Shown piece by piece: positions 14,903 through 35,042 of a DNA stretch of 48,875 bases. Source of the stretch: an uncultured Methylococcaceae bacterium (GTDB lineage Bacteria > Pseudomonadota > Gammaproteobacteria > Methylococcales > Methylococcaceae). The notes under the pieces were generated by a model. That model saw nothing but the letters and a program-made list of their open reading frames with translations. It was not told the origin of the DNA and made no database searches. The number at the start of each line of letters is the position of its first letter. Position 1 is the first letter of the stretch. The translations under genes were made by a program, and so were the position numbers. The stretch lies in contig CAIYXP010000298.1 of NCBI GenBank assembly GCA_903930145.1, positions 1 through 48,875 on the forward strand. Direction: 5' to 3'.

Positions 14903-14906
14903 GGGC

Positions 14907-18335: not shown

Positions 18336-18509
18336 AAATTTAAGTCTCGCTAAATGCGGATTGACGAAGTGTGATGCATGGCATGGCGTCGAATGATGGC
18401 CGCACAATCGCATTAATCCAATCATTGACACCCGCCACGCCTGAATTTTTTTGGTGCCTTCCCCGCGCCTTCCGATCATCGGCACGGTTTCCCGTCACAA
18501 CTGCCCGGT

Positions 18510-19208: not shown

Positions 19209-19787
19209 CTACCCGATGTTGACGCCGTGGTCGGATGCCAGCGCCTTCAAACCGCCGGCAAAACCCTGGCCCACTGCCTTGAATTTCCATTCAGCGCCAT
19301 TGCGGTAGACTTCACCGAAAATCATGGCCGTCTCGGTGGAATAATCTTCCGACAAATCAAAGCGGGCGATTTCCGTGTTGCTGTCCTTGTTGACGATACG
19401 CATGAACGCATTGCGCACCTGCCCAAAGTTCTGTTTGCGGGCCTCCGCATCGTGTATGGTCACGGCGAACACCAGACGCTGCACGGCAGGGTCGGTCCCC
19501 GGCAAATTGATGCTGACTTGCTCGTCGTCCCCCTCGCCCGCGCCAGTCAGGTTGTCACCGGAATGCATTACGGCCCCGTCGGGCGACTTTTTATTGTTAT
19601 AAAACACAAAATGCCCATCGGACAGCACTTTGCCGTTTTCACCGGTCAAGAACACGCTGGCATCAAGGTCGAAAGCAGACCCATCGGTGGAGCGGGCATC
19701 CCAGCCCAAGCCCACCAATGCATTGACCAAGCCCGGATCGGTCTTGCTTAAACTGACATTGCCGCCTTTTTGCAAACTAATAGCCAT
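19209..19787 (-). CDS. terD: TerD/TerE-family Ca2+-binding stress protein
   Basis: 192 residues, very similar to the protein at 14907-15485. It starts [15 protein letters not shown], has [15 protein letters not shown], an intact loop [13 protein letters not shown] and [27 protein letters not shown] ribosome site precedes the ATG at 19787 with 7-8 bp spacing. It is the first gene after a 312-bp gap and is likely the promoter-proximal gene of the terD-AIM24-terZ-biosynthetic-terAB transcript. Whether to call it TerD or TerE is arbitrary from sequence alone. Confidence 0.93.
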
Positions 19788-20099: not shown

Positions 20100-21605
20100 T
20101 CAATGTCCCTCGACCATTTGTATCACTGCCAACCGCCCGCCCTCTTGCGGTGAAAAAAGCAGCGTGCCCCCATCCATCAGCGGGGCGGCCATGCCGATAG
20201 GAATGGGGTGCTTGGTTTCGCCGGAAATTTCGGTCAACTCAGGCAGGTTCTCGTTGACCAGCCACCATGCCTCATTGTGCCAGACGAAATAACCCACCCG
20301 TTTGCGCAATTCCGGTGCAAGGCGTTCATTGGGGAAGATGTTGCGGTTGACATGCCAAGGGAACAGCGATTGGTTGGTGTAAACCATCAGCCTGTGATTG
20401 TCCGGGGTGAATTGACCCTCCCGGCGGGCCGAGTAAAGATTCAACACGGGCAAACTGCCCCGGTATGGGGTCTCGCAAAACGGACAACGGGGCGCGGTGG
20501 TATTGTCGAACACATACCACGCTTGGCTACAGTTGGGATTTTGGCAGGGTTGGATCAAATCCACCGTTTTCACCAGCGCATTTTCCCATTCGTCGGCGGT
20601 GGGACGCTCGGAAGGTTTATGCAGACCTTGCATGAATGCCCGGTCAAATAACGGGGTCAGATAAGGCCCGGACACCGTATAAGGTATTTTGGCCGTGTCC
20701 TTCCATGGCAGTTCGCTAGGTTTGATGTTTTTAGCCCTAATGCGGTTGCTGGTGTCGGAGGGATGTTCGACGAACAGGGCTTTCTCACCCATGGACAAGG
20801 TCTCGTCGATTTGCGGGTCTGCGTCATGCACTTTGTCGCCACGCAAGGGATGGCGGTAGAACAGATACATGTAGATCAACACAGCCAAGGCATGGCGGTC
20901 GGTGGCGATGCTGGGAAGTTTGCGCTTGGGGTCTTCTTTGCCCAAGTGGCACGTCATGACGACTTCGGGTGCGATGAAGTCCGGCGTGCCCACCACGTCG
21001 GGCGGATATTTGCCCGGAACCACCAAACCATCAATGTCGATGATGCAGGCACGACCGTCCGTGGGGTCGACCAATACATTCTTATAGGAAAGGTCGGAGT
21101 GGGCCAAGCCTGCGGCGTGCATCCGTTTCACTGCCCGGGCGATGAGGATGCAAATTTTCAAGTACTTCCGCCAATCCCCACGTTCGCGGGGGTCGAGGAA
21201 TCGATTTTGGTTATTGGCGCTGGCGAACCACTTACCTTCCTTTTCCCTGCCCTTGATCCCCAGAAAATCGTCATTCCTAGAACCAAACTCGAAAAAGAAA
21301 TGGCGCTGATAGGTGGGGGCGACCACACCGATGCGGCCGTTGAATTCAACCACGGCGCTAGGCCAGCAGAACAGGTTTTTCCAATAATCCCCGCCGGCGT
21401 TTTCAAACAGGCTCTGCCGATAGCGCCCCGTAATCATGAGCAGCCGGTCTTTGGTCTGCGCATCCTGCTCTTCGCGGAAAAAACCCACGACATAGGATTT
21501 GTCGGGGCTGAAATAAACATCCTTCATGCCTCCAGACCCGATGATTTCATCCACTATTTCAATGGGTTGTCCTTCAACAGTTTGCAATTTTATGATGTTC
21601 GCCAT
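20100..21605 (-). CDS. TerY-P triad protein kinase with zinc ribbon
   Basis: A 501-residue eukaryotic-like kinase. The glycine loop is EIIGSGGMKDVYF (about 24), the catalytic loop HSDLSYKNVL (about 168) and the metal motif IDIDGL in place of DFG (about 188), followed by VVGTPDFIAPEV. The strand after the Gly loop reads SYVVGFFREEQ and lacks an obvious VAIK lysine. A CxxxxC...CPFC zinc ribbon lies at about 350-378, then a C-terminal beta-rich region with FHA-like spacing. The ATG at 21605 is 5 bp after the PP2C stop; the longer N-terminal frame lacks family similarity. With the PP2C and TerY genes it forms the kinase-phosphatase-vWA triad known from Ter systems, probably phosphorylating TerY or TerD partners. 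Confidence 0.88.
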   Translation of the reverse strand: MANIIKLQTVEGQPIEIVDEIIGSGGMKDVYFSPDKSYVVGFFREEQDAQTKDRLLMITGRYRQSLFENAGGDYWKNLFCWPSAVVEFNGRIGVVAPTYQRHFFFEFGSRNDDFLGIKGREKEGKWFASANNQNRFLDPRERGDWRKYLKICILIARAVKRMHAAGLAHSDLSYKNVLVDPTDGRACIIDIDGLVVPGKYPPDVVGTPDFIAPEVVMTCHLGKEDPKRKLPSIATDRHALAVLIYMYLFYRHPLRGDKVHDADPQIDETLSMGEKALFVEHPSDTSNRIRAKNIKPSELPWKDTAKIPYTVSGPYLTPLFDRAFMQGLHKPSERPTADEWENALVKTVDLIQPCQNPNCSQAWYVFDNTTAPRCPFCETPYRGSLPVLNLYSARREGQFTPDNHRLMVYTNQSLFPWHVNRNIFPNERLAPELRKRVGYFVWHNEAWWLVNENLPELTEISGETKHPIPIGMAAPLMDGGTLLFSPQEGGRLAVIQMVEGH

Positions 21606-21610
21606 GGGCT

Positions 21611-23173
21611 TTAAGGTCCTGGTGCAAGCAGCGCGAGGGTGCGGTCGTCGTGATTGCCGGGGCTCCAAAAGCTCATCCACTCCAACAGCCGCTCATTGGG
21701 TTTCTCGTCGTCCAGCAAGGGGGACAACTCGTCCCAAAGCGCATCCCATAACACAGGTTTCACCAAATTGCCGTCGGTTTCAAATTTAGGGTCGCTGATG
21801 CCGTCGGACATCAGGGCAAATACCGTAAAATCTGGGGCGATGAACACATTCAGGCGCTTCATGATCTCATCGTAAGAAGACAGCACCGCTTGATCCAAGA
21901 AACGGGTCTGGCCGGCGTATTCACCGGAATCCACTTCGCCCAGCAATTCGACCCCGACCCCGCGTCGATAGACGGCCACCGCGCCGTCACCCACCCAGAA
22001 GCTGGCGAACAAATGGCCCGCTTGGAGCTTTCTGTGCAAGCCTAGAATCAACGTGGTGGCATAGTCTTTCACGGGCCTGCCGTTGGCAACAGCCTCGTCC
22101 TCAATAGCCTTGTGCGCGGCAAAGGCTGCACCGCCTAAGACCGGGTAAAGTTCTTTTTTCAAATCTTCGCACAGATTCAAAGCCCCCTCCGGGCGTGCGG
22201 CAAGTTCCCGCAGTTTCCCCGAAACTTCCCCACCCTCCAGACACTGTTTCATCTTTTCCACGGCCCGCTGCACGGCGATTTGGGAGCCTTTCCGTGACTG
22301 TGGGGCGCTGCCGGCGCCATCAGCCACCGCCAAGATGTTCCAGTCCGTCTCGGCATCCAGCAGAAAATCGTCGTCGCGGAAACTACCCACATGCGCATGG
22401 GAACGACCGCGTTGGCTGGCGGCAACCATTTTGCAGCCGTCTTTGCCTAGGATGAATGCGGTCGCAGCGTCGGGCTTCCAGTCTTTGTCACAGGCGTCGG
22501 AAGGCAAATCCTTCCATAACGAGCGCGGATCGGGGTTGACGACCAGCCTACACTCCCCCTCCATCACGGCGGTCAGACGGTAGCTGAATTTCAACGGGTA
22601 TTCGCCGGCGATGGCGGGGATACCCTGCAAGCGCCTGGATTCGGGATCAAAAACCAAGCCCAATTCCGGGGGTATTTCCATGTTGATAATCTTCAGATCT
22701 TCCACACCGGACATTTCCAGCACGGCGTCGAAGGGTTCGCCCACCTTGGCGTTCTTGCCAATGAAAAAACTAGGCCGGTTTGATGGGAATGGCTTTGCAG
22801 GGCGGCTAAAGGAGGGTATGACGGGATGTCCCGGACGGGTAAATGGCATAGGGGAATCTTTGGTTAGGCTTGGAATGTCCAGTGGCAGGGCGGGCATGGC
22901 CGCGACATCCGGGTCGGTTTGGGCTTCGCCGGCTGGGGAAGCAGGGTCGGCAAATTGCGCACCCTGGTTAAACGCTTGCCAGCTTGCCTTGATTTGCTCG
23001 CAAAATTGTTCAAACGCCTGTAGAACCGGCTGACTGCGAGTGAATTCGGCCAACAATTCGGCGGGGGCGACTTCAGCGTTCACAGTGGGTGGCTCGTCGG
23101 CATCATCGGCATGGCAAATGCTTTGGATCAACCAATCTAATGTTTCCGGGGATATATGAGGCTTGGTTGGCAT
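21611..23173 (-). CDS. PP2C-type protein phosphatase with Ig-like domain
   Basis: 520 residues. The first 110 are low-complexity and Pro-rich. Residues about 125-206 form an Ig/He_PIG-like module (NAKVGEPFDAVLEM ... GLVFDPESRRLQGIPA ... GEYPLKFSYRL). The remainder is a PP2C_2 domain with SHAHVGSFRDDDF, the metal motif ILAVADGAGSA (about 283) and LMSDGISDPKF. It is a Mn/Mg-dependent Ser/Thr phosphatase expected to reverse the adjacent kinase. It lies 3 bp from terY and 5 bp from the kinase, indicating one transcript. The Ig-like module on a cytosolic phosphatase (no signal peptide) is unusual and suggests protein docking. Confidence 0.87.
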   Translation of the reverse strand: MPTKPHISPETLDWLIQSICHADDADEPPTVNAEVAPAELLAEFTRSQPVLQAFEQFCEQIKASWQAFNQGAQFADPASPAGEAQTDPDVAAMPALPLDIPSLTKDSPMPFTRPGHPVIPSFSRPAKPFPSNRPSFFIGKNAKVGEPFDAVLEMSGVEDLKIINMEIPPELGLVFDPESRRLQGIPAIAGEYPLKFSYRLTAVMEGECRLVVNPDPRSLWKDLPSDACDKDWKPDAATAFILGKDGCKMVAASQRGRSHAHVGSFRDDDFLLDAETDWNILAVADGAGSAPQSRKGSQIAVQRAVEKMKQCLEGGEVSGKLRELAARPEGALNLCEDLKKELYPVLGGAAFAAHKAIEDEAVANGRPVKDYATTLILGLHRKLQAGHLFASFWVGDGAVAVYRRGVGVELLGEVDSGEYAGQTRFLDQAVLSSYDEIMKRLNVFIAPDFTVFALMSDGISDPKFETDGNLVKPVLWDALWDELSPLLDDEKPNERLLEWMSFWSPGNHDDRTLALLAPGP

Positions 23174-23176
23174 GGA

Positions 23177-24229
23177 TTAACCCTTGCCCCGGTGGACATC
23201 AAAGCCGTCAGCGTCAGTATTTTCGAAATTCACCGATTTTCCGCACCAAGGGCATTGTGCCAAGCCCAGACTACCGATGCACATCAGTCCACCGCAGGCA
23301 CACATCGCAAACGCAGAGGGATTGCCACAATGCGGGCAACCGGGTGTGCCGATCAATTCGCCGGTGTTGACTTTCAGGTTCGGGTTGCTGTCGTCGGTCC
23401 ATGCAAAATAATTTTCATCAAGCGGATAGCAGCCTGACAATTCATAGGCCGCGTTGTCTATCTTGAAATAGTCGGTTTCGAGGTGGATATTCGCCCGGTC
23501 ATATTTGATGAGATAAGGCTTATGGCTTTTCTGGCAACGGCCTATCAGGGTCACGCAATCCTTGTCCACCAAATTGGGGCAAGGCGGCGGCAGGTCACGG
23601 ATGATTTTCAGCAAGGTGTCGTCGATCTTGGCAAGCTGCACACCGGGTGATCCATTGCCGACACTCCGACTCTGGGCGGTCAACGAAGCCGTGACCCAGC
23701 GGATAAAATCAGTGAAACTGTCGCCTTGGGTCTCTTCAAAAACCAGTACGTTTTCAGTCAATTGCCTAAGCACCGACAAATCGGCGTAGTTTCCAAAGGC
23801 GACGGCAATGCAATGCGCCTTGTGCGCGTAATCCCTTTTCCAGCGGCTAATCGGTATGTCCGTGGAGTCCGTAGGCTTGCCATCGGTAAAAATATAGACA
23901 ATCGGTCGCCAATCGCCTTTGCACTCGGCAGTGGTGGCTATCACCACGCGGTCAATTTCATGCATCAGGTGGATGAGTGCCGCGCCGAGGGCGGTCCCAC
24001 CGCCCATGGGCAGCCTCGGCGGATAAAACGAGGCGACATCCACCAACGGCGCAACGGTTTCAGCCTTGCCGGCAAACGCAATGACGGACAAGTATACGGT
24101 TTCCAGTGCGTGGGGGTCGTGCCGCAAGCTGCGCACGATTTGAGACAGGCCGTCTTCCATTTTCCTAAGGTTGTCGCCAACCATGGATTCCGACACATCG
24201 AGAACAAAAAACACCGGCAGTCTGCGCAT
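23177..24229 (-). CDS. terY: TerY vWA protein with C-terminal zinc-binding TerY-C domain
   Basis: 350 residues. The vWA domain (1-200) has a full MIDAS: FVLDVSESM, the conserved Thr in MGGGTALGAAL, and FTDGKPTDS. A linker containing DLPPPCPN leads to a C-terminal region rich in Cys (CPHCGNPSAFAMCACGG ... CPWCG, about 295-330), the zinc-binding TerY-C type. In Ter systems this is the TerY-P member working with the kinase and PP2C encoded just downstream. It lies 22 bp after another vWA gene. Confidence 0.9.
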   Translation of the reverse strand: MRRLPVFFVLDVSESMVGDNLRKMEDGLSQIVRSLRHDPHALETVYLSVIAFAGKAETVAPLVDVASFYPPRLPMGGGTALGAALIHLMHEIDRVVIATTAECKGDWRPIVYIFTDGKPTDSTDIPISRWKRDYAHKAHCIAVAFGNYADLSVLRQLTENVLVFEETQGDSFTDFIRWVTASLTAQSRSVGNGSPGVQLAKIDDTLLKIIRDLPPPCPNLVDKDCVTLIGRCQKSHKPYLIKYDRANIHLETDYFKIDNAAYELSGCYPLDENYFAWTDDSNPNLKVNTGELIGTPGCPHCGNPSAFAMCACGGLMCIGSLGLAQCPWCGKSVNFENTDADGFDVHRGKG

Positions 24230-24251: not shown

Positions 24252-24893
24252 CTAAATCACAACTTGCACTTCGGGCGGCGGCGGGGGCAGGCTCGTGGGG
24301 GAGGCAACGCCTGCACTGCTGCTGCCGGTGGCCACACTGGCCGACACCCATTTGAAGAATTGGGCGAAGGAGGCGATATCGGTGGTGTCCAAGCTCACGA
24401 CTGTCGGCGTCAACTCCTTCAGCAAAGCCTCCTTGGCTTTTTGACCGGCGGCACAGGCAACAATATTGCCGAAATGGCGTTGCTTCACTTTTGCGATCAT
24501 TTCCCGATAGCACTGCAAGTCCGACGGGCTGCCGTCAGTCATGATAAACAGCAGGGGTCGCCAATCGCCCTTACGATCCGGGCTGCCGAGAATGACATCG
24601 CGGTCAACCCGGTCAATCAGCAATTCCAGTGCCGCGCCTAAAAAGGTCGCGCCCGAACCGGGCACTGCAATTTCCGGCAGACGGACCTGCTCCAAAGGGG
24701 TCAGCGGGAAAAGCTCTTTGGCCTCGATATCGAAGGTGATGACGGACAGGTGTACGCTCTCAAGCGCATAGGGGTCTTGCCGCAAGGCGGACAACATGGA
24801 TTGCATGCCCACATTCACCGCGTGTATTGGCTCGCCCCGCATCGACCCGGATGTGTCCAGCAGAATGTAAACCGGAAGTCTTCGCGTAGTCAT
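24252..24893 (-). CDS. terY: TerY-type vWA protein
   Basis: 213 residues, essentially a single vWA domain: MIDAS motifs ILLDTSGSMRGEPI, PGSGATFLGAALE and IMTDGSPSD. It lacks the Cys-rich tail of the downstream paralog. Instead it ends in SLPPPPPEVQVVI, a tail shared with the paralog at 25617-26255, a candidate docking peptide. Metal-dependent ligand binding is expected. It lies 38 bp after a TerD-family gene. Confidence 0.9.
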   Translation of the reverse strand: MTTRRLPVYILLDTSGSMRGEPIHAVNVGMQSMLSALRQDPYALESVHLSVITFDIEAKELFPLTPLEQVRLPEIAVPGSGATFLGAALELLIDRVDRDVILGSPDRKGDWRPLLFIMTDGSPSDLQCYREMIAKVKQRHFGNIVACAAGQKAKEALLKELTPTVVSLDTTDIASFAQFFKWVSASVATGSSSAGVASPTSLPPPPPEVQVVI

Positions 24894-24931: not shown

Positions 24932-25582
24932 TTACAGGTATCGGTCACGCAAAATATGGACAAAGGTGTCGGTTTCAAAGGGGATGCCTATGGCTTGAAA
25001 CTTCCACCCCGTAGATTCCCGCTCCAGTTCGGCGAAAATCATCGAATGGTGCGGCGCATAGGTCGCATCACCCGACAAGTCAAAGCTTGCCATTTCACGC
25101 CCCTTGCCATCCACCGCATGGATAAAGGCATTCTTGACTTTGCCGAAATGCTGTTTGCGTTCTATGCCTTGGTAGATTTGCACGATAAAGGCTATTTTCT
25201 TGTACTGCTCGGGCAGTGCCGACAAGTTGGCGATGATTTGCTCGTCGTCCCCGTCGCCCTCCCCGGTGCGGTTGTCCCCGGTGAGGTGAATGTAGCCGGA
25301 CGGATGGCGCAAACTGTTGAAGAAAACCACATCCCCATTTTTCAGGTTGGGGTGCCCATTCTCAACACTGCCTAGATTTTTGACCTTGCCATCGGCGGCA
25401 CAGAGAAAAGCGACGACATCCAAGTCGTAGTCTTCAGTTTGTTTGTTGCCAAACAATCCCCCTAGGAAGCCACTGGATTTCTCCTCGGCAATATCCCAGC
25501 CCAAGCCAATGGTGACTTGGGATAAATCGTACACATCTTTGCGCAGGCTGACGCCCTGCCCTTTTTTCAGTTTGACGGCCAT
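24932..25582 (-). CDS. TerD-family protein, TerX/TerZ-like
   Basis: 216 residues. It begins MAVKLKKGQGVSLRKDVYDL and has a GFLGGLFGNKQTEDYDLDVVAF insertion region like TerZ/TerX. The Ca2+ loop GDNRTGEGDGDDEQI is intact, followed by KQHFGKVKNAFIHAVD and HHSMIFAELERESTGWKF. Its C-terminus (FETDTFVHILRDRYL) differs from standard TerD. It lies between two TerY-type genes, so adaptor and Ca2+-binding subunits alternate. Confidence 0.88.
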   Translation of the reverse strand: MAVKLKKGQGVSLRKDVYDLSQVTIGLGWDIAEEKSSGFLGGLFGNKQTEDYDLDVVAFLCAADGKVKNLGSVENGHPNLKNGDVVFFNSLRHPSGYIHLTGDNRTGEGDGDDEQIIANLSALPEQYKKIAFIVQIYQGIERKQHFGKVKNAFIHAVDGKGREMASFDLSGDATYAPHHSMIFAELERESTGWKFQAIGIPFETDTFVHILRDRYL

Positions 25583-26309: not shown

Positions 26310-26891
26310 TCAGGCCACATCGACACCGAACTGCCGGCACAATGCCTCCAGACCACCGGCATACCCTTGACCGACGGCCTTGAATTTCCACTCATTGTCA
26401 CGCCGGTAAACCTCGCCGAACACCATCGCCGTTTCCGTGCTGTAATCTTCCGAGAGATCGAAGCGGGCGATTTCCAAGTTGCCTTCTTGATCGACAATGC
26501 GGATGTAAGCCCCACCAACCTGCCCGAAGTTCTGGCGGCGCATGTCGGCATCGTGAATAGTGACGCTCACCACCAGCCGTTGAACATAGGCAGGCATGTT
26601 GCCCAAATCGACCTTGACTTGCTCGGCATCGTCTCCCCCACTCGCGCCTTCCTTGTTGTCACCCATGTGCTCGACCGAACCACAGGCCGATTTAAGCTGG
26701 TTGTAGAAGATGAAATCATTGTCACTCCGCACCTTGCCGTATTCGCCCAGCATGAAAACACTGGCATCAAGGTCGAAATCTTCGCCCGCCGTGGTGCGCT
26801 CCTCCCAACCCAAGCCAATCATGATGCGCTTCAGGTTGGGCGAAGACTTGGATAAGGAAATATTCCCGCCTTTGTTTAATTTGACCGCCAT
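26310..26891 (-). CDS. terD: TerD-family stress protein
   Basis: 193 residues, TerD-like. It begins MAVKLNKGGNISLSKSSPNL, with [15 protein letters not shown], a partly changed Ca2+ loop GDNKEGASGGDDAEQ and [20 protein letters not shown]. The loop retains Asp residues but replaces the NxTGxGxGDDE pattern. It is closest to the zinc-ribbon TerD encoded just upstream (same SVExx and GGLE(A/T)LC endings), suggesting tandem duplication. Confidence 0.9.
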   Translation of the reverse strand: MAVKLNKGGNISLSKSSPNLKRIMIGLGWEERTTAGEDFDLDASVFMLGEYGKVRSDNDFIFYNQLKSACGSVEHMGDNKEGASGGDDAEQVKVDLGNMPAYVQRLVVSVTIHDADMRRQNFGQVGGAYIRIVDQEGNLEIARFDLSEDYSTETAMVFGEVYRRDNEWKFKAVGQGYAGGLEALCRQFGVDVA

Positions 26892-26933: not shown

Positions 26934-27704
26934 CTAGTCTACGTTGACGCCAAATTCATGGCACAAGGTTTCCAACCCGCCTACGTATCCCTGACCCACT
27001 GCCTTGAATTTCCATTCGGCGCCACGCCGATAAATTTCACCAAAAATCATCGCCGTCTCGGTGCCGTTATTGTCGGAAAGGTCGAAACGGGCAATTTCCA
27101 CGCCAGTTTCCTCGGCAACAATGCGGATATATGCCCCTTTAACCTGACCGAAGTTCTGCCGCCGTGCTTCCGCCTCGTAAATGGTGACGCTCACCGACAG
27201 GCGCTGGATAACGCTTGGCATCTTGCTTAGGTTCACCTTGATCACTTTGGCATAGCCTTCCTTGGCCCATGCCTTGCTGTCTTCGATCAGTTCGACCGAG
27301 CCGCACGATGATTTAAGTTGGTTGTAGAAGATGAAATCTTCGTCGCCCCGCACCTTGCCGTTTTCAGCCGTCATGAAGACGCTGGCTTCAAGCTCGAAAT
27401 CGTTGGCTGGCTTTGCGAGTACCTTCCAACCCAAGCCGACCAAGATGCGACTTAGATTAGGGGAATGTTTCGATAGGGAAATATTCCCCCCCCTCGTCAA
27501 TTTCACCGCCGAAGTCGGCGGGATCGGGGCCGGCACGGGTCTGGGTTGGGGAGGGTGTTGCTCCTGCCTTGGAGGTGTCGGGGTCGACTCCGGCTTTGGT
27601 GAAACCGGGGTCGGCGCATCAACGGCCGGCTTGGGTTTCCCACAAAATGGACAATACTCGGTTGCCCAACCCAACTGCATTTTACAGTGTCTGCACACCA
27701 ACAT
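26934..27704 (-). CDS. Zinc ribbon - Pro-rich linker - TerD domain protein
   Basis: 256 residues in three parts: a four-Cys zinc ribbon (CRHC and CPFC; Cys 4, 7, 18, 21), a 38-residue Pro/Thr-rich linker (27-64) and a TerD domain (66-256). In the TerD part the acidic strand reads FELEASVFM instead of FDLDAS, and the Ca2+ loop is replaced by IEDSKAWAKEGYAK, so Ca2+ binding is probably lost, while [20 protein letters not shown] is kept. It starts 3 bp after the tubulin-like gene, implying tight coupling to it. It is likely an adaptor subunit and not a sensor. Confidence 0.88.
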   Translation of the reverse strand: MLVCRHCKMQLGWATEYCPFCGKPKPAVDAPTPVSPKPESTPTPPRQEQHPPQPRPVPAPIPPTSAVKLTRGGNISLSKHSPNLSRILVGLGWKVLAKPANDFELEASVFMTAENGKVRGDEDFIFYNQLKSSCGSVELIEDSKAWAKEGYAKVIKVNLSKMPSVIQRLSVSVTIYEAEARRQNFGQVKGAYIRIVAEETGVEIARFDLSDNNGTETAMIFGEIYRRGAEWKFKAVGQGYVGGLETLCHEFGVNVD

Positions 27705-27707: not shown

Positions 27708-30700
27708 TTAACTACCGGGTGGCGGTTCGGGCGGCAATCCCGGCGCTCCAGAAATAGGAGGCGGCGGCGGAACGCTCGCAAACAAGGCGGTCAGTTCGGG
27801 AATTTGGTTCAGGGGCAGCCACGATGGCAAACCCTCGCGCCAAGCGTAGGTCGCAGCCGCCACCTGGCCTGCCGCCGCCCATTGCTGAAGTTGGGCGTAT
27901 GGATAAGGTCCATGCTGTTGACCATTGACCGCAATGAAATACTGGTATTGAGTGGGTAGCGGCGGCACACCAGGAAGGGGCGGTGGTGCCACAAACGGTG
28001 GAGGCGTGGCAGTTTGCCCATTGGCTGGCTGACCCTCCTGTGCAGGTTTTTCCAGCCACTGGTCCAACCTACCCGCTTGGAAGAATACAGGCAGCACAAC
28101 CCGCTTTAGTCGTGGCAGTTCACTTTTCTCGACTTCCCAAGAATAGGCGTCTTCGTTGGAATTATCGACCGTGCCACTCCATTCTTTTAGGGTATCGGCA
28201 GCCCTTAGCCTGCAATGGGCAATCTCGGCATCGCCCATGCCTTTCCGTTTGGCTTTCTCCCGCAATTCGTGCGCAATTTCCTCGGCGATGGCGGCGGAAA
28301 AGCCTTTGACCGGCTTTTGAGCGCCAGTGTCGGTATCAACCAGGCACGGCGTGTAAACGTCCAGCGCATAAAATTCTGCCAGCGCCGTCAAGAAGAGCAG
28401 TTGCTTGACATCAAGACTGTTCAATTTATCGGTGATTTCTTCCATGATCTGCCTATGGTAGGTCTCCGGCAAGCCATTGAGCCGAAATGCGCGCTCGTTG
28501 CCGATGCGCCGGCTGTCGCCACGGCTGACGGCAAACACATACTGTCCGGGCGGAACCACCTCCGGGTTACTGTCACGAGTCAACACACCAAGCATGACCC
28601 CGATGAGATAATGGAAAAAGTCATCGGCCAAACGATTCAATTCGGTCGTCGACGGTGCCAAAGGGTGAGTGAACTGGGTGGAATCCCTATGGGTGTGGAG
28701 GGGAATTTTCTCGGATTCCTTGCGGTAGCTGGTGCGCCAAGCTTCCATGCCGCGCAGCGTGGTCAACGGAATGCCCGACAATTCACAATAACAGACCGCA
28801 CGTCCCGGCACGCCAGTGTCGACAAAGGCAAGCTGTTGCGGCGAAATGCCCGCTGCCGTGGGTATCTGTGCGAGCATCTCCTCCTTGAAGCGCTTCTCGT
28901 ATTCAGCCGCCTTGGACACGCCGATATAACATTTGAATTGATCCGGTTTAGGGGCGAAATCTTTGCCCCAACTGGCATCCACCCAAGGCATGGCACGGGT
29001 CAGCAATTCCTGGAACCGCCTTTGCCGCTCTGCGGGGCGTATCGCTTCCAAAGCGAGTATCAATGGATCGACCTCGTCCGGTTGTTGGTTGGAAATCAGG
29101 GCGATCTGCTGTTCGGCCTTGGCCCTTAACAAACCAATCAATCGTTCCCGTTCGCCAGAGTCCGCCAGCATGGGAAACAAGGTCTTGGAACCGCCAATAT
29201 CTTTGAACACCTCGTCGGCCCATGTGCGCAGTTCCTGCATCGCTGGCATCGGCGCACTCTCCGCCGGCGTTTCGACACGGATATAAGTGGCATAATCTTT
29301 GTGGATGTCTTCCTGCAACAATTCAACCTTGCGTTCGACCGAGCCGATCATCGCCAACACGGCATTCCTGCCTGCCTGCAATTCCCCAACCAAGCCCGTC
29401 CAGCGGGCATCGCCGCGCTCATCAAGCCCTTGCCGTTCGCCCAGCCATAGAGAAATGTCCTGCAAGCGCAGGGATGCGTGGGTAGCCGCCTTGTTGCGCA
29501 GATGGAACTTCAAAAAGTTGCAAATCTCTTCTTTCAACTGCTCCAAAATGCGCCTGGCTTGCTCCTCTTTGTTGCCGAAGCTAAAGAATCCGCTACCCTT
29601 GGTTTGCTCCAGATTGTCCAACAGGCGCTCGTATTCGCAGGTGCGGACGACATCGCGTATCTCGCCATAGCGCTTGGCGTTGACTGCCAATGCGGCAATC
29701 AAGCCGGTGTTGGGGTTTTCCAAACGGTCTTTGATTTGCTCCACCGAGGAAAGCACGTATTCCAAGCCACCGAACTCTTTGTTGTCGAGATAGACATAAA
29801 GCTGATTATGCAATTTGTCTTTGATATCCTTGATGAGTTGGTTGGCATTGTGGGTAATCCGGTCTTCCGTGGTGTCGGCGGTGGAATCTTGGTCACGCAC
29901 GACATCATGCTCCAATTCCTTGACCACCTCCCGAATGCGACTCCCCCACTCGTCCTTGTTAAAACCCGAGGCAATCTGTTCAATGCGTCCTGCCACCTTC
30001 TGCCGCATCCCTTCGATGAGCGAGCCCTGCCGGTCCAGCAACAAATCGTCGGTAAGCTGGTAATCGACGAACTCCCCCCGGTTGATGCTGGCCTTGGGAT
30101 CGCTGATCTCCGGGAATTCGATAAAAGGCTTGGCCACCAATTGCATGTAAGCCGCCATGAACTCATCGCGTTGCTTGTCGGTGGCGCGTGACGAGCCGAC
30201 ATTGTCCGCTGCGACACCAAAGAACGCCTTGAGCATTGCCTCGGTCCAATGATAGGCGCGAATGTCGCGCCTCACGCCCAATTGAGTGTCCAGCACCGAC
30301 TGCCCAAAGGCCGAATAGCCCTGATAGTAGGATAGCTTCATGTCGCCATACCGGTTGCCCGGCACCGGCGGCGTGAAGGGCAGTATCTTGTGCTGGCGTT
30401 GATTGACCGCGACGGAGCGCTTTCGGTTGGCGAAATCGATGGAGGCAAAATCCTCAAACAGCGCATCGGCCACCATTTCGTAAACGTCTTTCTGGTTACT
30501 GGTGTGTAATTGCGCCAAGTTGCCCGAATCAATCAAATAGACCTCGTCAAAAGGTGTCACACTGAGCTCAGGCCGGTCATAGTTGTCCCAGCGCGTCACA
30601 AAATGCGCCCCCCCCCTCATGCAGGTTTCCAGTTCCATGAAAGAGGCATAGCCATTCGCCTCGGTGCGTTCTTTGGCGGCACTTTGATACCCGGTCGGCA

Positions 30701-31418
30701 AAAACAACATCATTTCGACTTCTGCTGCGCTAACGGTTTCTTTGGCTATCCATTTAGACAACCAGCCCATGTCCAAGAACGAACCCGCACCGGTTCCGCC
30801 AGCCACGGAGCCGATGACGACAATCCGAAACTTGCTGGTGTCCAAGTCCAGCCCCAGAGCTTTAAGTTGGGCATCTTTATTCAAACCGCTTTTCAACCAG
30901 ACTAGCTTGGTGCGGATTTTTTCCTTGATTTTGGTGTATTTGTCGAAGAAATACAGGCGGGAAATGGCACGAATCTGGCCCGCACCCTTGCTTGGGTCTA
31001 TGCCCAATTCGCGGATTTTTTTCGGTGTCAGCGGAGACCAGTCCTTGATGTAGGGGTACTTGGTCAAATCATCGTCGCTACGGCTGTAACGCTCGATTTC
31101 GAAGCTTTCGACCAAGCGATCCTCGTCCGTCAATTTGACACTGTCGGCAAGCGGGTCGGTGCGCTGCGACTTCCCCGACTCGACCAAGGCCCCATGGTCA
31201 AGGTCGAAATGAATGAATTGCGCCACCGGAAATTCCGATAGACTGGAAATCCGCATGGGATTATGTGGCGGACCCCAGACAGAGGTGAGTATCCGGCGGC
31301 GGACGCGCAAGATGACTTCCATGCCCGTGCCGCCCACGCCAATGTACAGGGTCGGGCGAAGTTTGACGATTTGATCGGCTCTATTGGTGGCGCGTGGCGC
31401 AGTGTCTGGTTCGGCCAT
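27708..31418 (-). CDS. Tubulin/FtsZ-like GTPase family protein with C-terminal GYF_2 domain
   Basis: 1236 residues. The N-terminus has the nucleotide-binding strand PTLYIGVGGTGMEVIL (about 22-37), and near 206 the tubulin/FtsZ-type signature VVIGSVAGGTGAGSFLDMG, matching the Pfam Tubulin_2 (tubulin-like) family. A long, charged, largely helical middle (about 400-1100) has no domain I recognise. Residues about 1160-1210 (YFIAVNGQQHGPYPYAQLQQ ... ATYAWREGLPSWLPL) are a GYF_2 domain, followed by a Pro-rich tail (VPPPPPISGAPGLPPEPPPG). No TM or signal peptide is present. GTP-dependent assembly is inferred from the family. The gene sits between a Pro-rich membrane protein and the zinc-ribbon TerD, hinting at a scaffold role in a membrane-associated Ter complex. 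Confidence 0.82.
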   Translation of the reverse strand: MAEPDTAPRATNRADQIVKLRPTLYIGVGGTGMEVILRVRRRILTSVWGPPHNPMRISSLSEFPVAQFIHFDLDHGALVESGKSQRTDPLADSVKLTDEDRLVESFEIERYSRSDDDLTKYPYIKDWSPLTPKKIRELGIDPSKGAGQIRAISRLYFFDKYTKIKEKIRTKLVWLKSGLNKDAQLKALGLDLDTSKFRIVVIGSVAGGTGAGSFLDMGWLSKWIAKETVSAAEVEMMLFLPTGYQSAAKERTEANGYASFMELETCMRGGAHFVTRWDNYDRPELSVTPFDEVYLIDSGNLAQLHTSNQKDVYEMVADALFEDFASIDFANRKRSVAVNQRQHKILPFTPPVPGNRYGDMKLSYYQGYSAFGQSVLDTQLGVRRDIRAYHWTEAMLKAFFGVAADNVGSSRATDKQRDEFMAAYMQLVAKPFIEFPEISDPKASINRGEFVDYQLTDDLLLDRQGSLIEGMRQKVAGRIEQIASGFNKDEWGSRIREVVKELEHDVVRDQDSTADTTEDRITHNANQLIKDIKDKLHNQLYVYLDNKEFGGLEYVLSSVEQIKDRLENPNTGLIAALAVNAKRYGEIRDVVRTCEYERLLDNLEQTKGSGFFSFGNKEEQARRILEQLKEEICNFLKFHLRNKAATHASLRLQDISLWLGERQGLDERGDARWTGLVGELQAGRNAVLAMIGSVERKVELLQEDIHKDYATYIRVETPAESAPMPAMQELRTWADEVFKDIGGSKTLFPMLADSGERERLIGLLRAKAEQQIALISNQQPDEVDPLILALEAIRPAERQRRFQELLTRAMPWVDASWGKDFAPKPDQFKCYIGVSKAAEYEKRFKEEMLAQIPTAAGISPQQLAFVDTGVPGRAVCYCELSGIPLTTLRGMEAWRTSYRKESEKIPLHTHRDSTQFTHPLAPSTTELNRLADDFFHYLIGVMLGVLTRDSNPEVVPPGQYVFAVSRGDSRRIGNERAFRLNGLPETYHRQIMEEITDKLNSLDVKQLLFLTALAEFYALDVYTPCLVDTDTGAQKPVKGFSAAIAEEIAHELREKAKRKGMGDAEIAHCRLRAADTLKEWSGTVDNSNEDAYSWEVEKSELPRLKRVVLPVFFQAGRLDQWLEKPAQEGQPANGQTATPPPFVAPPPLPGVPPLPTQYQYFIAVNGQQHGPYPYAQLQQWAAAGQVAAATYAWREGLPSWLPLNQIPELTALFASVPPPPPISGAPGLPPEPPPGS

Positions 31419-31456
31419 GATGGTTCTCGTATCTGTTCGGTTTTAATTGCGCAGTC

Positions 31457-31975
31457 TCAACGGCGTCCGGTGATGAGCATCAACACTAAAGACAGCAAGG
31501 CAATGCCGATAAAGATTCCCAAGTATAGCGGCGTAAAGAATTTGTCTTGATTGACGATGCCCAATACGCTGCCAGTCGCCAAGCTGGACAGCAAAGTGAA
31601 CAGCCACCAACCCGCCGCGTTGGCGGAGCGCGGCGCCACCCTTTTGCCGACGAGCATGTTGGCATAACCGTTCTTGGCAAAGAAAAACCCGATCAGCAAC
31701 ACCAGCAAGACACCGCCGCCGATGGCCATGTCGCGGGGGCTGGTGTCAGTCTGAATGCCGTCGTTAGGCACATTCACCGAAATATTGGTTCCCGTTTCAG
31801 GGGTGGCCTGCTGCACCGACCCGGCATTATAGGCGGGTTGGGGCGGGTTGGGGGCAGGTGGAGGTATTTTGAAACCCTTGGATTCAGGCACAGGGACAGC
31901 ATCCGAAACTGCCGGCTTGGTTGCCTGAACTTGAGTATTGACGTTGCCTTTGATGGGTGTTTTATTCTCAGCCAT
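31457..31975 (-). CDS. Pro-rich membrane protein, unknown family
   Basis: 172 residues. The N-terminal half is soluble and low-complexity with a Pro-rich stretch (KIPPPAPNPPQPAYN, about 36-50). It is followed by three predicted membrane helices at about 84-101, 122-140 and 149-169. I recognise no family. It lies 38 bp before the tubulin-like gene. The Pro-rich segment is a plausible ligand for the GYF_2 domain of that protein, and the helices could anchor it. This is inference from composition and neighbourhood. Confidence 0.75.
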   Translation of the reverse strand: MAENKTPIKGNVNTQVQATKPAVSDAVPVPESKGFKIPPPAPNPPQPAYNAGSVQQATPETGTNISVNVPNDGIQTDTSPRDMAIGGGVLLVLLIGFFFAKNGYANMLVGKRVAPRSANAAGWWLFTLLSSLATGSVLGIVNQDKFFTPLYLGIFIGIALLSLVLMLITGRR

Positions 31976-32075
31976 GATAGTTCTCAGTTTAAATACGAAA
32001 ATGGTTATTCAGCTTGAGACATTGAGCAAATAAGTTTTGGCATCCGTTAAGTGTCCGTGTATTAGTCATTGTAAA

Positions 32076-33545
32076 CTACCCAATGGGGTTAACGCTATGC
32101 CCTGGCTTTTTATCCGAGACTGATAATTTAGTCATTCGCCGTTGTATTTTAGCGATAACCTCTCCTGTGTCGGAGTGCAACTCTTGGGATTGAAAGGGTT
32201 TCAGTTTGAATTTTTGCAGCCGCCCATCGACTTCAATCTCATAATAGCGTTGCTTCGCCGCTAACATAAAAGCCAAAAAAACAAGACCAATCAGGGCCAA
32301 CAAACCTAGGCCAATAATAAAAATTGGATAGGTCGGATAATTAATTTGAACAATGATAGGCACTTTGACGAATGAGGATTGTATCCCGGTTGGCGGGCTA
32401 AACACCTCAGAGATGGGGTCTCCCGGAAACAGTTCATTGAGGTTGCGCCTGAACGTTTCTGACACAACGATTTGCTGATTATTAAGCCCTATGTCGACCG
32501 TGCCATGCACTTTAAGCGTCTTACCCAAAGAGCCCAGTGCCGTAGATGACCAGATGGAGGGTATCTTGGCCAAGGGAATGGGGAAATTGACTTTAATTTC
32601 CCGCTGTGCGCTCGGTTCCAAGCCGACTATGTTTTGCGGTTCGACGGACAGCGGGTTACTCCATGTGTCAATGGTGAATTGGGCGGAAATATCGGCTGCT
32701 TGGATAATATAGGGATAGAATAAGTTTTCCAATGAGGCCACGATTTCCACGCTAGGCTGCTGCTCGGAGGCAGCCACATCCAAAACCACCGTTTGCTGGT
32801 CGGCAGCCAGACTCACCTTCGTCTTCGAACCCGCTCCATTCCTGATTTCCTTTGGCACTAGGCGCACCGATTCCCGGTCTAGGGGTTTAAGCCGGGCCGA
32901 CTGCCCGGTGAAGACTTGCATGATGCGACCGCTTTGCAACAATTCGCGCAGTTGGGCATCGGCTTCCTGACCGTAGGCCATGGCATAAACCATGAGTCCG
33001 TTGGCTTGGTATACAGCCCCCTTGACGGGCATCCCCAGCGGGAAAACCACCGTCCTGACGATTGACGGTTCGTTATGTATCAGATGGTAAAACTGTCGGT
33101 TGCGCTTTGCCGTTTCGGCATCATTATTGGGGCTGTTTTTATTATTGGTGAAAATCCACACAATACCCGGCTTGGTTTGAAACTGTTCGATGATCGTCTT
33201 CGTCACCGCTTCTTCAAAATCCGTATCGGCCAAACCGCTTGTTTTGGTTTTTTTTGCAACGGCGATGGCGGCAACGGACTCTTCCAAGGGCCGCGATTGG
33301 CCGCTTGCAAAAACCAGCATGGGCGATTGACTGCCCCCGGCTGACTGATTGAATGCGGAGACAAAGATTTGATCTTCCGGGCCGCTGACGGCTTGAATGA
33401 CAGCCAGCACAAGAGGCTTGAACTGAGAGTTTGGATCGCTGTAAAACGGTTCCATCCACCCAGAATTCTGAATAAGAAATGCCTGCTGTCCGGAAGCCAC
33501 AGCGGGTGAAAACAGCGCCAGTAATATTAGCAAGCAAAAACGCAT
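32076..33545 (-). CDS. Membrane-anchored vWA-like protein
   Basis: 489 residues. A signal peptide (1-19, ends SPAVASG) leads into a vWA-like domain starting QAFLIQNSGWMEPFY, where the first MIDAS Asp is replaced (LIQNSGW), with IVWIFTNNKNS at the expected third-motif position. A beta-rich region (about 240-400), one TM (about 405-428) and a basic cytoplasmic tail (KQRYYEIEVDGRLQKFK ...) follow. Topology is therefore a periplasmic domain with an inner-membrane anchor. It is part of the tubulin-like block: 25 bp after the 490-residue orphan and 100 bp before the Pro-rich membrane protein. Metal binding by the MIDAS is doubtful. Confidence 0.78.
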   Translation of the reverse strand: MRFCLLILLALFSPAVASGQQAFLIQNSGWMEPFYSDPNSQFKPLVLAVIQAVSGPEDQIFVSAFNQSAGGSQSPMLVFASGQSRPLEESVAAIAVAKKTKTSGLADTDFEEAVTKTIIEQFQTKPGIVWIFTNNKNSPNNDAETAKRNRQFYHLIHNEPSIVRTVVFPLGMPVKGAVYQANGLMVYAMAYGQEADAQLRELLQSGRIMQVFTGQSARLKPLDRESVRLVPKEIRNGAGSKTKVSLAADQQTVVLDVAASEQQPSVEIVASLENLFYPYIIQAADISAQFTIDTWSNPLSVEPQNIVGLEPSAQREIKVNFPIPLAKIPSIWSSTALGSLGKTLKVHGTVDIGLNNQQIVVSETFRRNLNELFPGDPISEVFSPPTGIQSSFVKVPIIVQINYPTYPIFIIGLGLLALIGLVFLAFMLAAKQRYYEIEVDGRLQKFKLKPFQSQELHSDTGEVIAKIQRRMTKLSVSDKKPGHSVNPIG

Positions 33546-33569
33546 GAGTTTTTTATTGTTCTTGATGAG

Positions 33570-35042
33570 CTAGGCTAAGAGTCTCCATCCAGGAATAGGG
33601 TCGTCAAAGTCCGGGTGGTACAAATAAATACATTTGCGATAAACGAAAGGGCGAGCCAGCCAGGGACGGGCGACTTTCTTGATGAAAAAGTCTATGTCGC
33701 CATCCCCCGTCACCATCTGGAATATCGTAGTATGCTTGACTGGGTTTTTAAAGAGGCTATCGGACCCTTTATTCCATGGAATGCGCGCGCATAACGCCGA
33801 TTTGTCAGGAGACTCCAGCAAAGGTAGCACAATATGGTTTGCAGTGGCATCGGAAACCTCTTCGGGGTCGAGCCACGGATGGCTCCTCAACTGGGTTTCC
33901 AGCGTAAAGTTGACCGTACCGGAACCGAACCGCGGACAGGCTGTTTCTTGTTTTTCAGGATGCCCACTCGCCAGTGTGATGTAAGTGTAGCGTTCGGTCC
34001 CCTGGTCAAAACCCAGTTGCCATAGCATTCCATCCCTTGCGAGGTATGGGCTGCCGAATTCAAAACAGGGTTGAAAGCCTTCCGGCCAACTGATAAACGC
34101 GATGGCTGGCTTGCTGTCGATACCGTCAAATTTAAGGATCAATTGACCGGTGCGGCTCAGCCAAATGATTTGGCGACGGTCGATGATGGACGCATCAAAA
34201 GGCTCGGCCAGAAAACTATGCTCGACCTCCATTTGCTCGCTCTGGAGCGGGTTCCTAGGATCGACTTGCAAAATCACTCCCACATTCCCGTCCAGTATCG
34301 CCGGGACAAATATTCTTTTCCCTTGGAAGCAGCAGGGCGCACCTACGCAACGCCCCGGAAGCAAGCGAAGCCCATAAGTGAGATTGAGGATATTGATGCC
34401 TATGACCGCAAGCCCTTTATCGGTCGGCAGATAAATATTTCGCCGGACAAGGTCTGGGCAGGCGAGTCCCCAGCGGCTGGCCAGCAAAGTTGACTCTGGC
34501 AGCAATTGGGGGTTGCCCTTCAATTCCGCCCACTGATTCGAAGAGTCGCGGAAGACAAACAGCATCCCCTTGCGTGGTTCGACGGCAAGCAATGAGGGCC
34601 GTCGCATGGAGAAGTTGCCGACTAAAAAGTGATAGTCCCCCGGTGGGGGTAAAGGGATCGACGTGGCGGGGTCTTGCTGAAGTGTCAAGTCTTTGGACAA
34701 AGCCAGTTTGGCCTGAGTCTGGCGCAAACCGGGCAGCCCTTGGAAATCGGGGGGTTGACCACAGCCAAAAGGGGGCAGCCAACTTTCCGTGCGCGACCCC
34801 AAAGATGTCGGCAGCGGTTGACCCGTGACGGGAGAGTGGCGGAAGGCAGCGGGGTAGAGAACATTTTCATGCCCCTCGGCCCATAACAGGGCGCCGGTCA
34901 GTTCGGCAAGTTCGCACATACTGTACTGCTCGCTGGCAGAACCCAAGCCACAGTAGTCAAGCAGTTTGAATGCGTCGGTTTTTCCATTCCTTGCCCAGCT
35001 TTCCCTGCGGCCATCAGTGTAGTCAAAATCCCAATTTGCCAT
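33570..35042 (-). CDS. Uncharacterised 490-residue protein, possibly beta-propeller-like
   Basis: No family recognised. No signal peptide or TM, so probably cytoplasmic. From about residue 150 the sequence consists of repeating beta-strand units with aromatic/Gly turns (RKGMLFVFRDSSNQWAEL, DKGLAVIGINILNLTYG, KRIFVPAILDGNVGVILQVD, QIIWLSRTGQLILKFDG), reminiscent of a propeller. It is first in the minus-strand run, starting at an ATG at 35042 behind a 398-bp non-coding region, and 25 bp before the vWA-like gene, so it is likely the leading gene of the operon. Confidence 0.7.
   Translation of the reverse strand: MANWDFDYTDGRRESWARNGKTDAFKLLDYCGLGSASEQYSMCELAELTGALLWAEGHENVLYPAAFRHSPVTGQPLPTSLGSRTESWLPPFGCGQPPDFQGLPGLRQTQAKLALSKDLTLQQDPATSIPLPPPGDYHFLVGNFSMRRPSLLAVEPRKGMLFVFRDSSNQWAELKGNPQLLPESTLLASRWGLACPDLVRRNIYLPTDKGLAVIGINILNLTYGLRLLPGRCVGAPCCFQGKRIFVPAILDGNVGVILQVDPRNPLQSEQMEVEHSFLAEPFDASIIDRRQIIWLSRTGQLILKFDGIDSKPAIAFISWPEGFQPCFEFGSPYLARDGMLWQLGFDQGTERYTYITLASGHPEKQETACPRFGSGTVNFTLETQLRSHPWLDPEEVSDATANHIVLPLLESPDKSALCARIPWNKGSDSLFKNPVKHTTIFQMVTGDGDIDFFIKKVARPWLARPFVYRKCIYLYHPDFDDPIPGWRLLA

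Follow-up and report, generated by a model that had tools for sequence, protein, structure and literature searches.

The window analysed here, the whole stretch of 48,875 nucleotides from a contig of an uncultured Methylococcaceae bacterium (CAIYXP010000298.1), carries on its minus strand a gene block built around a tubulin-like protein (TUB), followed by a tellurite-type stress (Ter) cluster. The features of this run are the following.

33570..35042, minus strand: P490, 490 aa, the first gene of the module
32076..33545, minus strand: P489, 489 aa, vWA-like protein
31457..31975, minus strand: P172, 172 aa
27708..31418, minus strand: TUB, 1236 aa, tubulin-like protein
26934..27704, minus strand: ZnR-TerD adaptor (zinc ribbon plus TerD)
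26310..26891, minus strand: TerD with FDLDAS and a DN..G..GGDD-type loop
25617..26255, minus strand: vWA protein of the Ter set
24932..25582, minus strand: TerD
24252..24893, minus strand: vWA protein of the Ter set
23177..24229, minus strand: TerY, vWA plus TerY_C metal-binding domain
21611..23173, minus strand: PP2C phosphatase of the TerY-P triad
20100..21680, minus strand: protein kinase of the TerY-P triad
19209..19787, minus strand: TerD
18510..19202, minus strand: AIM24-family protein
17751..18485, minus strand: TerD
16703..17737, minus strand: ATPgrasp_Ter, biosynthetic arm
15561..16850, minus strand: PRTase_2-TRSP, biosynthetic arm
14907..15491, minus strand: TerD
13733..14998, minus strand: TerD-domain protein, 421 aa
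12380..13144, minus strand: S6PP-type (HAD) phosphatase
11274..12383, minus strand: StiP plus PELOTA, biosynthetic arm
10412..11281, minus strand: C-C_Bond_Lyase, biosynthetic arm

All open reading frames described in an earlier note on this DNA were found on the minus strand at the coordinates it gave, including the 3-bp gap between TUB and the zinc-ribbon TerD; the gaps between P490 and P489, P489 and P172, and P172 and TUB are 24, 100 and 38 bp. The window has the Ter hallmarks, with TerD paralogues, the TerY-P triad (TerY_C vWA, PP2C and kinase) and the biosynthetic arm. Scanning the window for Rfam families and tRNAs returned nothing useful, and between positions 14000 and 33999 both promoter patterns (18 versus 11.6 +/- 3.6 in shuffles) and terminator patterns (27 versus 26.6) were hardly above the shuffled background.

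Judged by profile and model together, TUB is a tubulin-superfamily protein, as had been proposed. Its N-terminal part matches Pfam Tubulin_2 (1.2e-53), a domain present in 27/27 aligned TUB members, and the structure prediction that the earlier note suggested as a check yields a model that can be superposed on entire CetZ/tubulin chains, with Z up to 24.8. All 50 of the 50 fold matches listed are tubulin-superfamily entries, with 298 of the 1,000 chains left unaligned, and families absent from the list may still match; Foldseek alone gave modest matches (best E 1.3e-4, TM-score 0.35 by target). Furthermore, the glycine-rich loop AGGTG[AS]G, a near form of the GTP loop GGGTG[ST]G given for FtsZl1 proteins in 2010, occurs in 84/84 TUBs and a DFA..KRS-type stretch in 81/84. 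Long helices span residues ~454-808 of the model, and the C-terminal part consists of a Pro-rich region and a GYF_2 domain (1160-1209). GYF_2 was found in 26 of 27 TUB rows; the exception is the window protein, which was truncated ahead of this domain in that set and carries it at full length. The closest solved relative of the GYF domain is AgmX/GltJ (7z3c, 5.2e-10). Most matches in whole-protein TUB searches covered the GYF domain only and were left out of the TUB counts.

With respect to P489, the comparison of its model indicates that it has a vWA fold lacking the metal motif common in such domains, which bears out the proposed vWA-like character by fold, the sequence profiles being weak. 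The protein has a hydrophobic, signal-like N-terminus (1-19), a vWA fold (~16-206), an Ig-like sandwich (~225-404), one membrane helix (~401-430) and a short C-terminal beta region. Foldseek alone ranked Kir-channel sandwiches first, and the vWA fold emerged at a second look by structure comparison, with a best Z of 9.2, on a scale where Z 7-8 is common by chance and families missing from the list may still match. Eleven chains with Z 8.0-9.2 are ones that we take to be vWA-type or vWA-bearing (4fx5 and 2x5n by title). The window P489 has no Pfam match up to E 0.1 and no solved relative up to E 1, and only 2/42 aligned relatives reach the VWA profile (E ~0.07-0.08). QNSGWM stands in place of the MIDAS motif in 76/81 P489 proteins, and DxSxS was found in the first 70 residues of 0/81.

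P172 has a Pro-rich N-terminal tail with a conserved GFx[LIV]P motif, followed by membrane segments. Of the three helices ascribed to it, two are recognised by hydropathy, the third being weaker and seen by reading the sequence; together with P489, it provides the membrane-linked partners that had been expected for the tubulin-fold protein. The loop after its first membrane segment is positively charged in 84/84 proteins and the stretch before that segment in 0/84, a pattern which suggests that the tail lies outside, with the short second loop, expected outside, also slightly positive in 76/84. The tail would then more likely meet periplasmic parts, and GFx[LIV]P as a ligand of the GYF domain was rejected on account of these charges. 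P490, aligned in 44 rows, has neither a Pfam family nor a membrane segment by hydropathy, and its three weak matches among solved structures are not convincing. It is no orphan, as it had been called, since its family is recognised in 76 loci.

A genome scan found 143 relatives, of which 80 were kept for loci. The four genes stand in a single order in 76/76 loci with all four recognised, mostly from Massilia, Janthinobacterium and relatives, a count made from plus-strand ORFs only; a search of both strands places all four on the same strand. In addition, 78/81 loci have an ORF with a zinc ribbon at its start behind TUB (control: 26/3280 ORFs). This count uses a wider form of the ribbon pattern, the narrower one, which missed the C-x4-C type and took some wrong frames, giving 22/73. 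The three loci without the ribbon gene are L009, L014 and L062, the last with 234 nt left after TUB. Four cysteines, and a P and a G between them, are invariant in 30/30 aligned fifth proteins, and 61/66 fall in one cluster. The zinc-ribbon protein is thus part of the conserved unit, which comprises five genes, a probable cell-envelope module that is conserved in many Proteobacteria. The grouping of the four genes in the earlier note stands, while its placing of the zinc-ribbon TerD outside the block does not; a four-gene block fused to Ter was accordingly rejected as the natural unit, TerD being adjacent in one clade only.

The usual fifth protein consists of a ribbon, an often Pro-rich linker, one membrane-helix-like segment and a tail. 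The segment is found in 61/63 non-TerD proteins with a 15-residue cut, the remaining two falling below it (1.31 and 1.52 versus 1.6), and a stricter 19-residue hydropathy cut gives one membrane segment in 30/63. The linker reaches at least 15% Pro in 42/65 proteins. In 3/30 Pfam-scanned fifth proteins, those of the window and of two Thiodictyon MAGs (L047 and L123), the linker is followed by TerD; in the window, ribbon cysteines 4, 7, 18 and 21 are followed by a Pro-rich linker and a TerD domain (66-251). The TUBs of these three genomes form one clade (100/100), and the gap from TUB to the ribbon-TerD gene is 2-3 bp in all of them. Most simply, the TerD-type protein would have arisen by one replacement, the membrane part giving way to TerD; the TerD-type ribbon could nevertheless be unrelated to the other ribbon type, because zinc ribbons are short and common. 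An LGWA-type ribbon pattern run over the bacterium's own genome returned the known ribbon and no others. The acidic DN..G..G-GDD loop is kept in seven ordinary TerDs and absent from the three ribbon-TerDs, an absence which, together with the missing DxSxS of P489, weakens the earlier proposal of Ca2+/metal signalling.

How far the module and Ter go together differs between genomes. In L123 the module is flanked by TerD, TerB, TerC and ribbon-TerD. In L047 the ribbon-TerD is the sole visible ter gene on an 11-kb contig, because the contig ends ~0.9 kb behind it, too short to tell; additional ter genes next to the module are seen in two genomes only, the window and L123. No TerD relative was found in 78/80 genome-contig loci (stretches of up to 10 kb on each side, often less), and in G679 a long distance separates the module from the TerD genes. 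The ter cluster of G005, which is of the same family and has TerD, vWA, TerY, PP2C and kinase, shows no TUB or ribbon-TerD in the 35 kb read. The TUB block is therefore no regular part of Ter systems, and its expected recurrence with ter genes holds for the Thiodictyon MAGs and fails as a general rule. The Ter link is real and lineage-specific, made via one adaptor, because the TerD-type adaptor is confined to one clade; there the zinc-ribbon partner carries TerD instead of a membrane-anchored tail, and the module is therefore tied to the tellurite-type stress system.

Our preferred reading, to which we give a probability of about 0.45, is that of an envelope-spanning five-gene module in which TUB would be the scaffold, the zinc-ribbon adaptor would set the output, and GYF_2 would dock ZnR-TerD and, via that protein, other Ter proteins. 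TUB would be a cytosolic tubulin-type scaffold that may use nucleotide and polymerise, P172 and P489 (vWA plus Ig-like, with one membrane helix and a predicted periplasmic location) would make up the envelope part, and P490 would be a soluble partner. The fifth protein would act as adaptor: its ribbon and linker are predicted to lie inside and would be followed by an exchangeable part. In most genomes this part is a membrane helix, with the tail behind it predicted to be outside; the window and the two Thiodictyon genomes have a soluble TerD domain there. GYF_2 most likely holds the Pro-rich linker of the adaptor, and this docking may not be general, because only 42 of the 65 linkers are Pro-rich by the measure given above. 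TUB assemblies at the membrane would collect ZnR-TerD and thereby other TerD and TerY-P proteins, and the Ter system would gain an envelope-linked, nucleotide-controlled docking site that may affect its response. A wider version, in which the tubulin-family scaffold is a general envelope platform with an exchangeable ribbon adaptor, the TerD swap put the Ter network under a tubulin-type assembly, and periplasmic input comes via the vWA without a metal site, seems to us somewhat unlikely.

The module might instead be a stand-alone envelope machine for remodelling or signalling, as predicted for FtsZl1 systems, with the ter genes mere neighbours and ZnR-TerD, in which TerD would simply stand in for the membrane part of the adaptor, outside the Ter pathway. 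The rarity of TerD relatives around the module, the G005 cluster, the lone ribbon-TerD of L047 and the lost acidic loop are all consistent with this. Against it, all three genomes of the clade (3/3) have TerD in the fifth gene, which regularly belongs to the module, and the L123 module has ter genes or AIM24 on either side; the TerD fusion and repeated adjacency therefore speak for more than chance neighbourhood, and we regard such a machine as unlikely. Another arrangement concerns GYF_2, which could fold back on TUB's own Pro-rich stretches as an assembly brake, the adaptor being bound by another surface. These stretches lie directly on both sides of GYF_2 in the window TUB and could be its ligand, and linker Pro content varies among fifth proteins; set against this, the adaptor gene so regularly follows TUB, and the 50 residues after the ribbon average 22% Pro, that we find the brake rather improbable.

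Tubulin and vWA genes also occur in conflict systems, according to the available text of PMC7159879, and on plasmids of Thermus and Allomeiothermus distant Tubulin_2/vWA pairs have genes for BrxL and RecQ-type helicases nearby. An anti-phage system of tubulin/vWA/GTPase type with Ter proteins as effectors is nonetheless very improbable here: the window ORFs scanned with Pfam include no TRAFAC GTPase, GAP1 or FNIII partner, PADLOC matches at E < 0.01 were limited to the kinase among 10 window proteins, and the fifth proteins, with their one dominant cluster, are not highly variable.

Under the preferred docking reading, GYF_2 and the ZnR linker form a testable docking pair, and GFx[LIV]P adds a conserved short motif. 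For one Tubulin_2 subgroup there is now a constant set of five genes, in soil and water bacteria that can be cultured, with a model that contains both tubulin domains where sequence had not revealed the C-terminal one, and a natural domain swap ties the module to Ter. Tubulin_2/vWA membrane systems had already been predicted, and the module is a variation on that theme. To our knowledge, the physical organisation of Ter in the cell is little understood.

Ter systems, as Anantharaman et al. reportedly described them in 2012, comprise TerD, the TerY-P triad and a biosynthetic arm. The window shares with them its TerD paralogues, TerY/PP2C/kinase, ATP-grasp, PRTase-TRSP, StiP-PELOTA and C-C lyase, and differs in having the tubulin module, with a ZnR-TerD lacking the acidic loop, in the same gene run. 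GltJ also joins a zinc ribbon, a GYF domain and a membrane helix. However, only the GYF stretch of TUB is alike, the whole-protein NCBIfam GltJ profile matching residues 1158-1224 only, far under its cut-off (27.7 versus 450 bits), and ribbon and GYF are here split over two neighbouring proteins, one of them a tubulin; AgmX/GltJ is itself described, in the text available, as a Myxococcus gliding motility protein (PMC3169522). The GAP1-N2 tubulin conflict systems (Kaur et al. 2020, PMC7159879) have in common with the module a tubulin, a vWA and membrane proteins, with ribbons and GYF among their components, and the available text places their tubulin theme in firmicutes and actinobacteria.

The closest comparison is with the Tubulin_2 (FtsZl1)/vWA membrane systems predicted in 2010 from rather variable gene neighbours (Makarova and Koonin, PMC2875224), for which we rely on the portion of that paper available to us; "tellur" and "TerD" are absent from its main text. 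Common to both are a divergent N-terminal tubulin/FtsZ domain, a glycine-rich loop, a long helical middle, a vWA-type partner, uncharacterised membrane proteins and a predicted membrane role. The FtsZl1 hallmark is an extended coiled coil followed by a helical C-terminal part, and P-loop GTPase and OmpA partners are frequent there and not required; the Pfam-scanned window ORFs contain neither. The module differs in its GYF_2 end, its zinc-ribbon adaptor gene, its vWA without DxSxS and a block in which no GTPase gene was found. Furthermore, the T6-H7 region and the tubulin C-terminal domain were not placed in the 2010 description as available, whereas the TUB model superposes on whole tubulin chains.

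The positions of the ORFs bear out an earlier note's placement of four block genes with a zinc-ribbon TerD behind them, and the genes of this neighborhood are as follows:

From 35441, divergent to the block and upstream of it: PHO4 transporter
33570-35042, minus strand: P490, a 490-aa protein
32076-33545, minus strand: P489, a 489-aa vWA-fold protein
31457-31975, minus strand: P172, a membrane protein
27708-31418, minus strand: TUB, a 1,236-aa tubulin-like protein
26934-27704, minus strand: ribbon-TerD, a zinc ribbon joined to TerD

Behind the ribbon-TerD, the minus-strand gene run continues with a Ter set (ORFs and Pfam, window) made up of multiple TerD genes, a pair of vWA genes, the TerY, PP2C, and kinase genes, AIM24, an S6PP-type phosphatase, and a biosynthetic arm of ATPgrasp_Ter, PRTase_2-TRSP, StiP-PELOTA, and C-C_Bond_Lyase. 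The Ter kinase (20100-21680) carries an internal zinc-ribbon-like cysteine set at about residue 378, and a P-type cation-transporting ATPase (7700-10339) lies immediately behind the biosynthetic arm. Close to the block, ParB-like and ParA-like genes stand in a row (37151-39219); the contig may belong to a plasmid or to an integrated element. A DUF6851/vanadium chloroperoxidase-like protein is found at 39546-41300.

The tubulin type proposed for the 1,236-aa protein holds, with Pfam placing Tubulin_2 at residues 24-374 (1.2e-53) and the predicted model matching CetZ and tubulin chains in fold. Pfam also places GYF_2 at 1160-1209 (7.5e-18), the nearest solved GYF being AgmX/GltJ. AGGTG[AS]G is present in 84/84 TUB proteins and a DFA..KRS-type stretch in 81/84 (window included in both), the latter being presumably the counterpart of the FtsZ T7 loop. 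The model of residues 1-1150 (24 aligned sequences as input) reaches a mean pLDDT of 79.8 and a pTM of 0.68. The first 50 Foldseek rows are tubulin/FtsZ entries, though they score modestly (best E 1.3e-4; TM-score 0.12-0.17 by query, 0.27-0.48 by target). A second structural alignment is topped by CetZ (3zid, Z 24.8, 329 residues, 6.2 Å, model 20-1006; 4b46, Z 23.7, 309 residues, 4.1 Å, model 21-903), followed by tubulins at Z of about 20.5-21.5, mostly with 330-360 residues aligned and with about 20-922 of the model matched to positions 1 to about 420 of the chains. Since these aligned lengths exceed the nucleotide-binding domain alone, the predicted model must contain the second tubulin domain, interrupted by helices at about 454-808, borders that are our own reading of the secondary-structure string. 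For the Tubulin_2 family, Makarova and Koonin (2010, PMC2875224) describe T6-H7 as not confidently placed and a tubulin-like C-terminal domain as not found, and a 2023 paper (PMC9871819) gives the FtsZ_C and Tubulin_C Pfam domains as absent.

The P489 model (mean pLDDT 90.8) resembles vWA domains in fold at about 16-206 (4fx5, Z 9.2, 3.4 Å, 135 residues; ArnAB complex 8s05 chain A, Z 8.9; Rpn10 2x5n, Z 8.1) and Ig-like sandwiches at 225-404. QNSGWM replaces the metal motif in 76/81 P489 proteins, which makes canonical metal binding unlikely. P172 has GFx[LIV]P within its first 60 residues in 81/84 cases, against a rate of 0.12% in shuffled sequences (L119 is cut, L014 has DFNLP, and L009 is without the motif), and apart from this motif (G 96, F 99, P 98%) its tail shows little conservation as far as about residue 69. 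The loop after TM1 is positively charged in 84/84, from which the loop is predicted to lie inside and the tail outside. CPxCG is present in 44/76 P490 proteins, those of the window and of two Thiodictyon MAGs (L047 and L123) being without it.

Relatives were collected by a genome_contigs scan with a four-row TUB alignment, keeping the best 80 of 143, and L009, L013, and L014 were added from other searches (duplicate stretches L042 and L044 left out). TUB scores above 400 in 83 loci besides the window. All four genes are recognized in 76 loci, with one gene order in 76/76 (L042 standing for L013); this count used plus-strand ORFs only, and a separate both-strand search lists the four genes on one strand. 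One or more genes are missing in 7/83 loci: four contigs start within or just before the remaining module genes (L064, L066, L092, L119), L062 has no recognized P490 and a short P489, L014/L044 no recognized P490, and in L009 neither P490 nor P489 is recognized. Massilia, Janthinobacterium, Pseudoduganella, and Rugamonas predominate among the hosts of the best 80 of 143, which also include Azohydromonas, Noviherbaspirillum, Comamonadaceae, Acinetobacter, Rhodanobacter, Endozoicomonas, and Thiodictyon; because most are Oxalobacteraceae, the loci are not independent. The module is rare in broader genome draws, being found in 0/37 other genomes of the window's family, with full-length TUB in two genomes besides the window (G679 and G730) among 398 of the phylum, where 27 further matches are GYF-only. 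Distant relatives occur on plasmids: Azospirillum sp. TSA2s p2 (L009) encodes a TUB of 28% identity with a P172-like gene, and a type IV secretion cluster lies in the vicinity along with genes of the caspase and OmpA families and DUF4384. On Allomeiothermus and Thermus plasmids (L011, L012), distant Tubulin_2 genes are paired with vWA genes close to BrxL and RecQ-type helicases, and on the former also to a DNA methyltransferase, a setting like that of a defence island.

An ORF starting with a zinc ribbon, C-x(2-4)-C-x(6-16)-C-x2-C at the N terminus, follows TUB within 400 nt in 78/81 loci where 150 nt or more remain behind TUB (the contig end cuts 12 of these ORFs, and one has just 70 aa). The pattern occurs in 26/3,280 other ORFs of at least 150 aa in the same loci; with several starts and frames allowed per locus, the chance rate is some times this 0.8% per ORF, still far below 78/81. 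The four cysteines and the intervening P and G are shared without exception by 30/30 aligned fifth proteins (30 of 66 full-length). By BLAST, the parts behind the ribbon form one cluster of 61/66, which may be loosely joined since low-complexity filtering was off, a second cluster of the window, L047, and L123, and two singletons (L069, L075). In 12 proteins inspected, the layout is mostly ribbon, linker, membrane helix, and helical-looking tail, and Pfam finds TPR-type repeats in about four of 30 and PEGA in L069. The side before the helix is more positive in 53/63 adaptors, and on these charges ribbon and linker are predicted to be inside. At the 19-residue cut, none of the three TerD-type proteins shows a membrane helix; a stretch in L047 reaching 1.69 at a looser 15-residue cut was rejected, as it sits inside the TerD domain. 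In an alignment of ten TerDs, seven ordinary ones (one a contig-end fragment) keep DN..G..G-GDD or close variants and the three ribbon-TerDs are without it, that of the window having FELEAS in place of FDLDAS; in the 2kxt/2kxv work, these residues are reported to bind Ca2+ in TerD.

Recurrence of the block with ter genes, as the earlier note had envisaged, is seen in few loci: a phmmer search of the fetched stretches with the window proteins (E 1e-4) finds TerD relatives solely in L047, L123, and the locus of the window itself. TUB and ribbon-TerD are separated by 3 bp in the window and L047, and by 2 bp in L123. The order in L123 is TerD, TerD, TerC, ribbon-FGE, TerB, ribbon-FGE, then P490, P489, P172, TUB, and ribbon-TerD, beyond which AIM24 and an ORF joining TerD with AIM24 lie on the opposite strand; the 11-kb contig of L047 reads ribbon-FGE, module, ribbon-TerD, with no other ter gene. 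The FGE-sulfatase proteins (L123, 2603-3871 and 4835-5935; L047, 93-1172) carry at the N terminus a zinc ribbon that closely resembles the one in ribbon-TerD and are further candidate adaptor outputs. AIM24-family genes stand in both ter clusters (window, 18510-19202; L123, 14627-16652, with TerD and AIM24 in one ORF). The three TUBs form one clade (100/100; tree of 27 rows of 84) within a partly unresolved backbone, so that one adaptor swap, with TerD replacing the membrane part, is the simplest, though unproven, reading. Within the family, 2/38 genomes have TerY_C, namely that of the window and G005; over the 35 kb read, the ter cluster of G005 is without TUB and without ribbon-TerD. Across the phylum, TerD relatives occur in 39/398 genomes, and no match except that of the window itself begins at the ribbon (next earliest at residues 27, 32, 41, and 43) in a scan that scored at most six candidates per genome and to which a divergent ribbon would not align; G679 has module and TerD genes on one contig, far apart.

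These features fit an envelope-spanning tubulin-like scaffold whose output would be set by an exchangeable adaptor. As the genes of TUB and adaptor are neighbors and Pro-rich peptides are ligands of GYF domains, GYF_2 would dock the Pro-rich linker of the adaptor; TUB polymerization, GTP use, and an effect on Ter are putative parts of the same proposal. Against it, further ter genes are visible beside the module in only two of the three genomes, the window's and L123; we give the scaffold, docking and Ter coupling included, a probability of roughly 0.45, and regard it as rather unlikely that the module is a stand-alone envelope machine with ter genes merely as neighbors. Open-licence literature, mostly at the level of titles and abstracts, yielded no description of the module or its Ter link, and an earlier description is possible. 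The window's own genome has a second Tubulin_2 cluster (contig C416, 92-13420; L046), differing from the block, which encodes a tubulin-like protein of 1,125 aa and three others: one of 829 aa that begins somewhat similarly, one of 932 aa whose start is hydrophobic, and one of 280 aa whose start is P-loop-like. This second cluster resembles the FtsZl1 gene sets of 2010.
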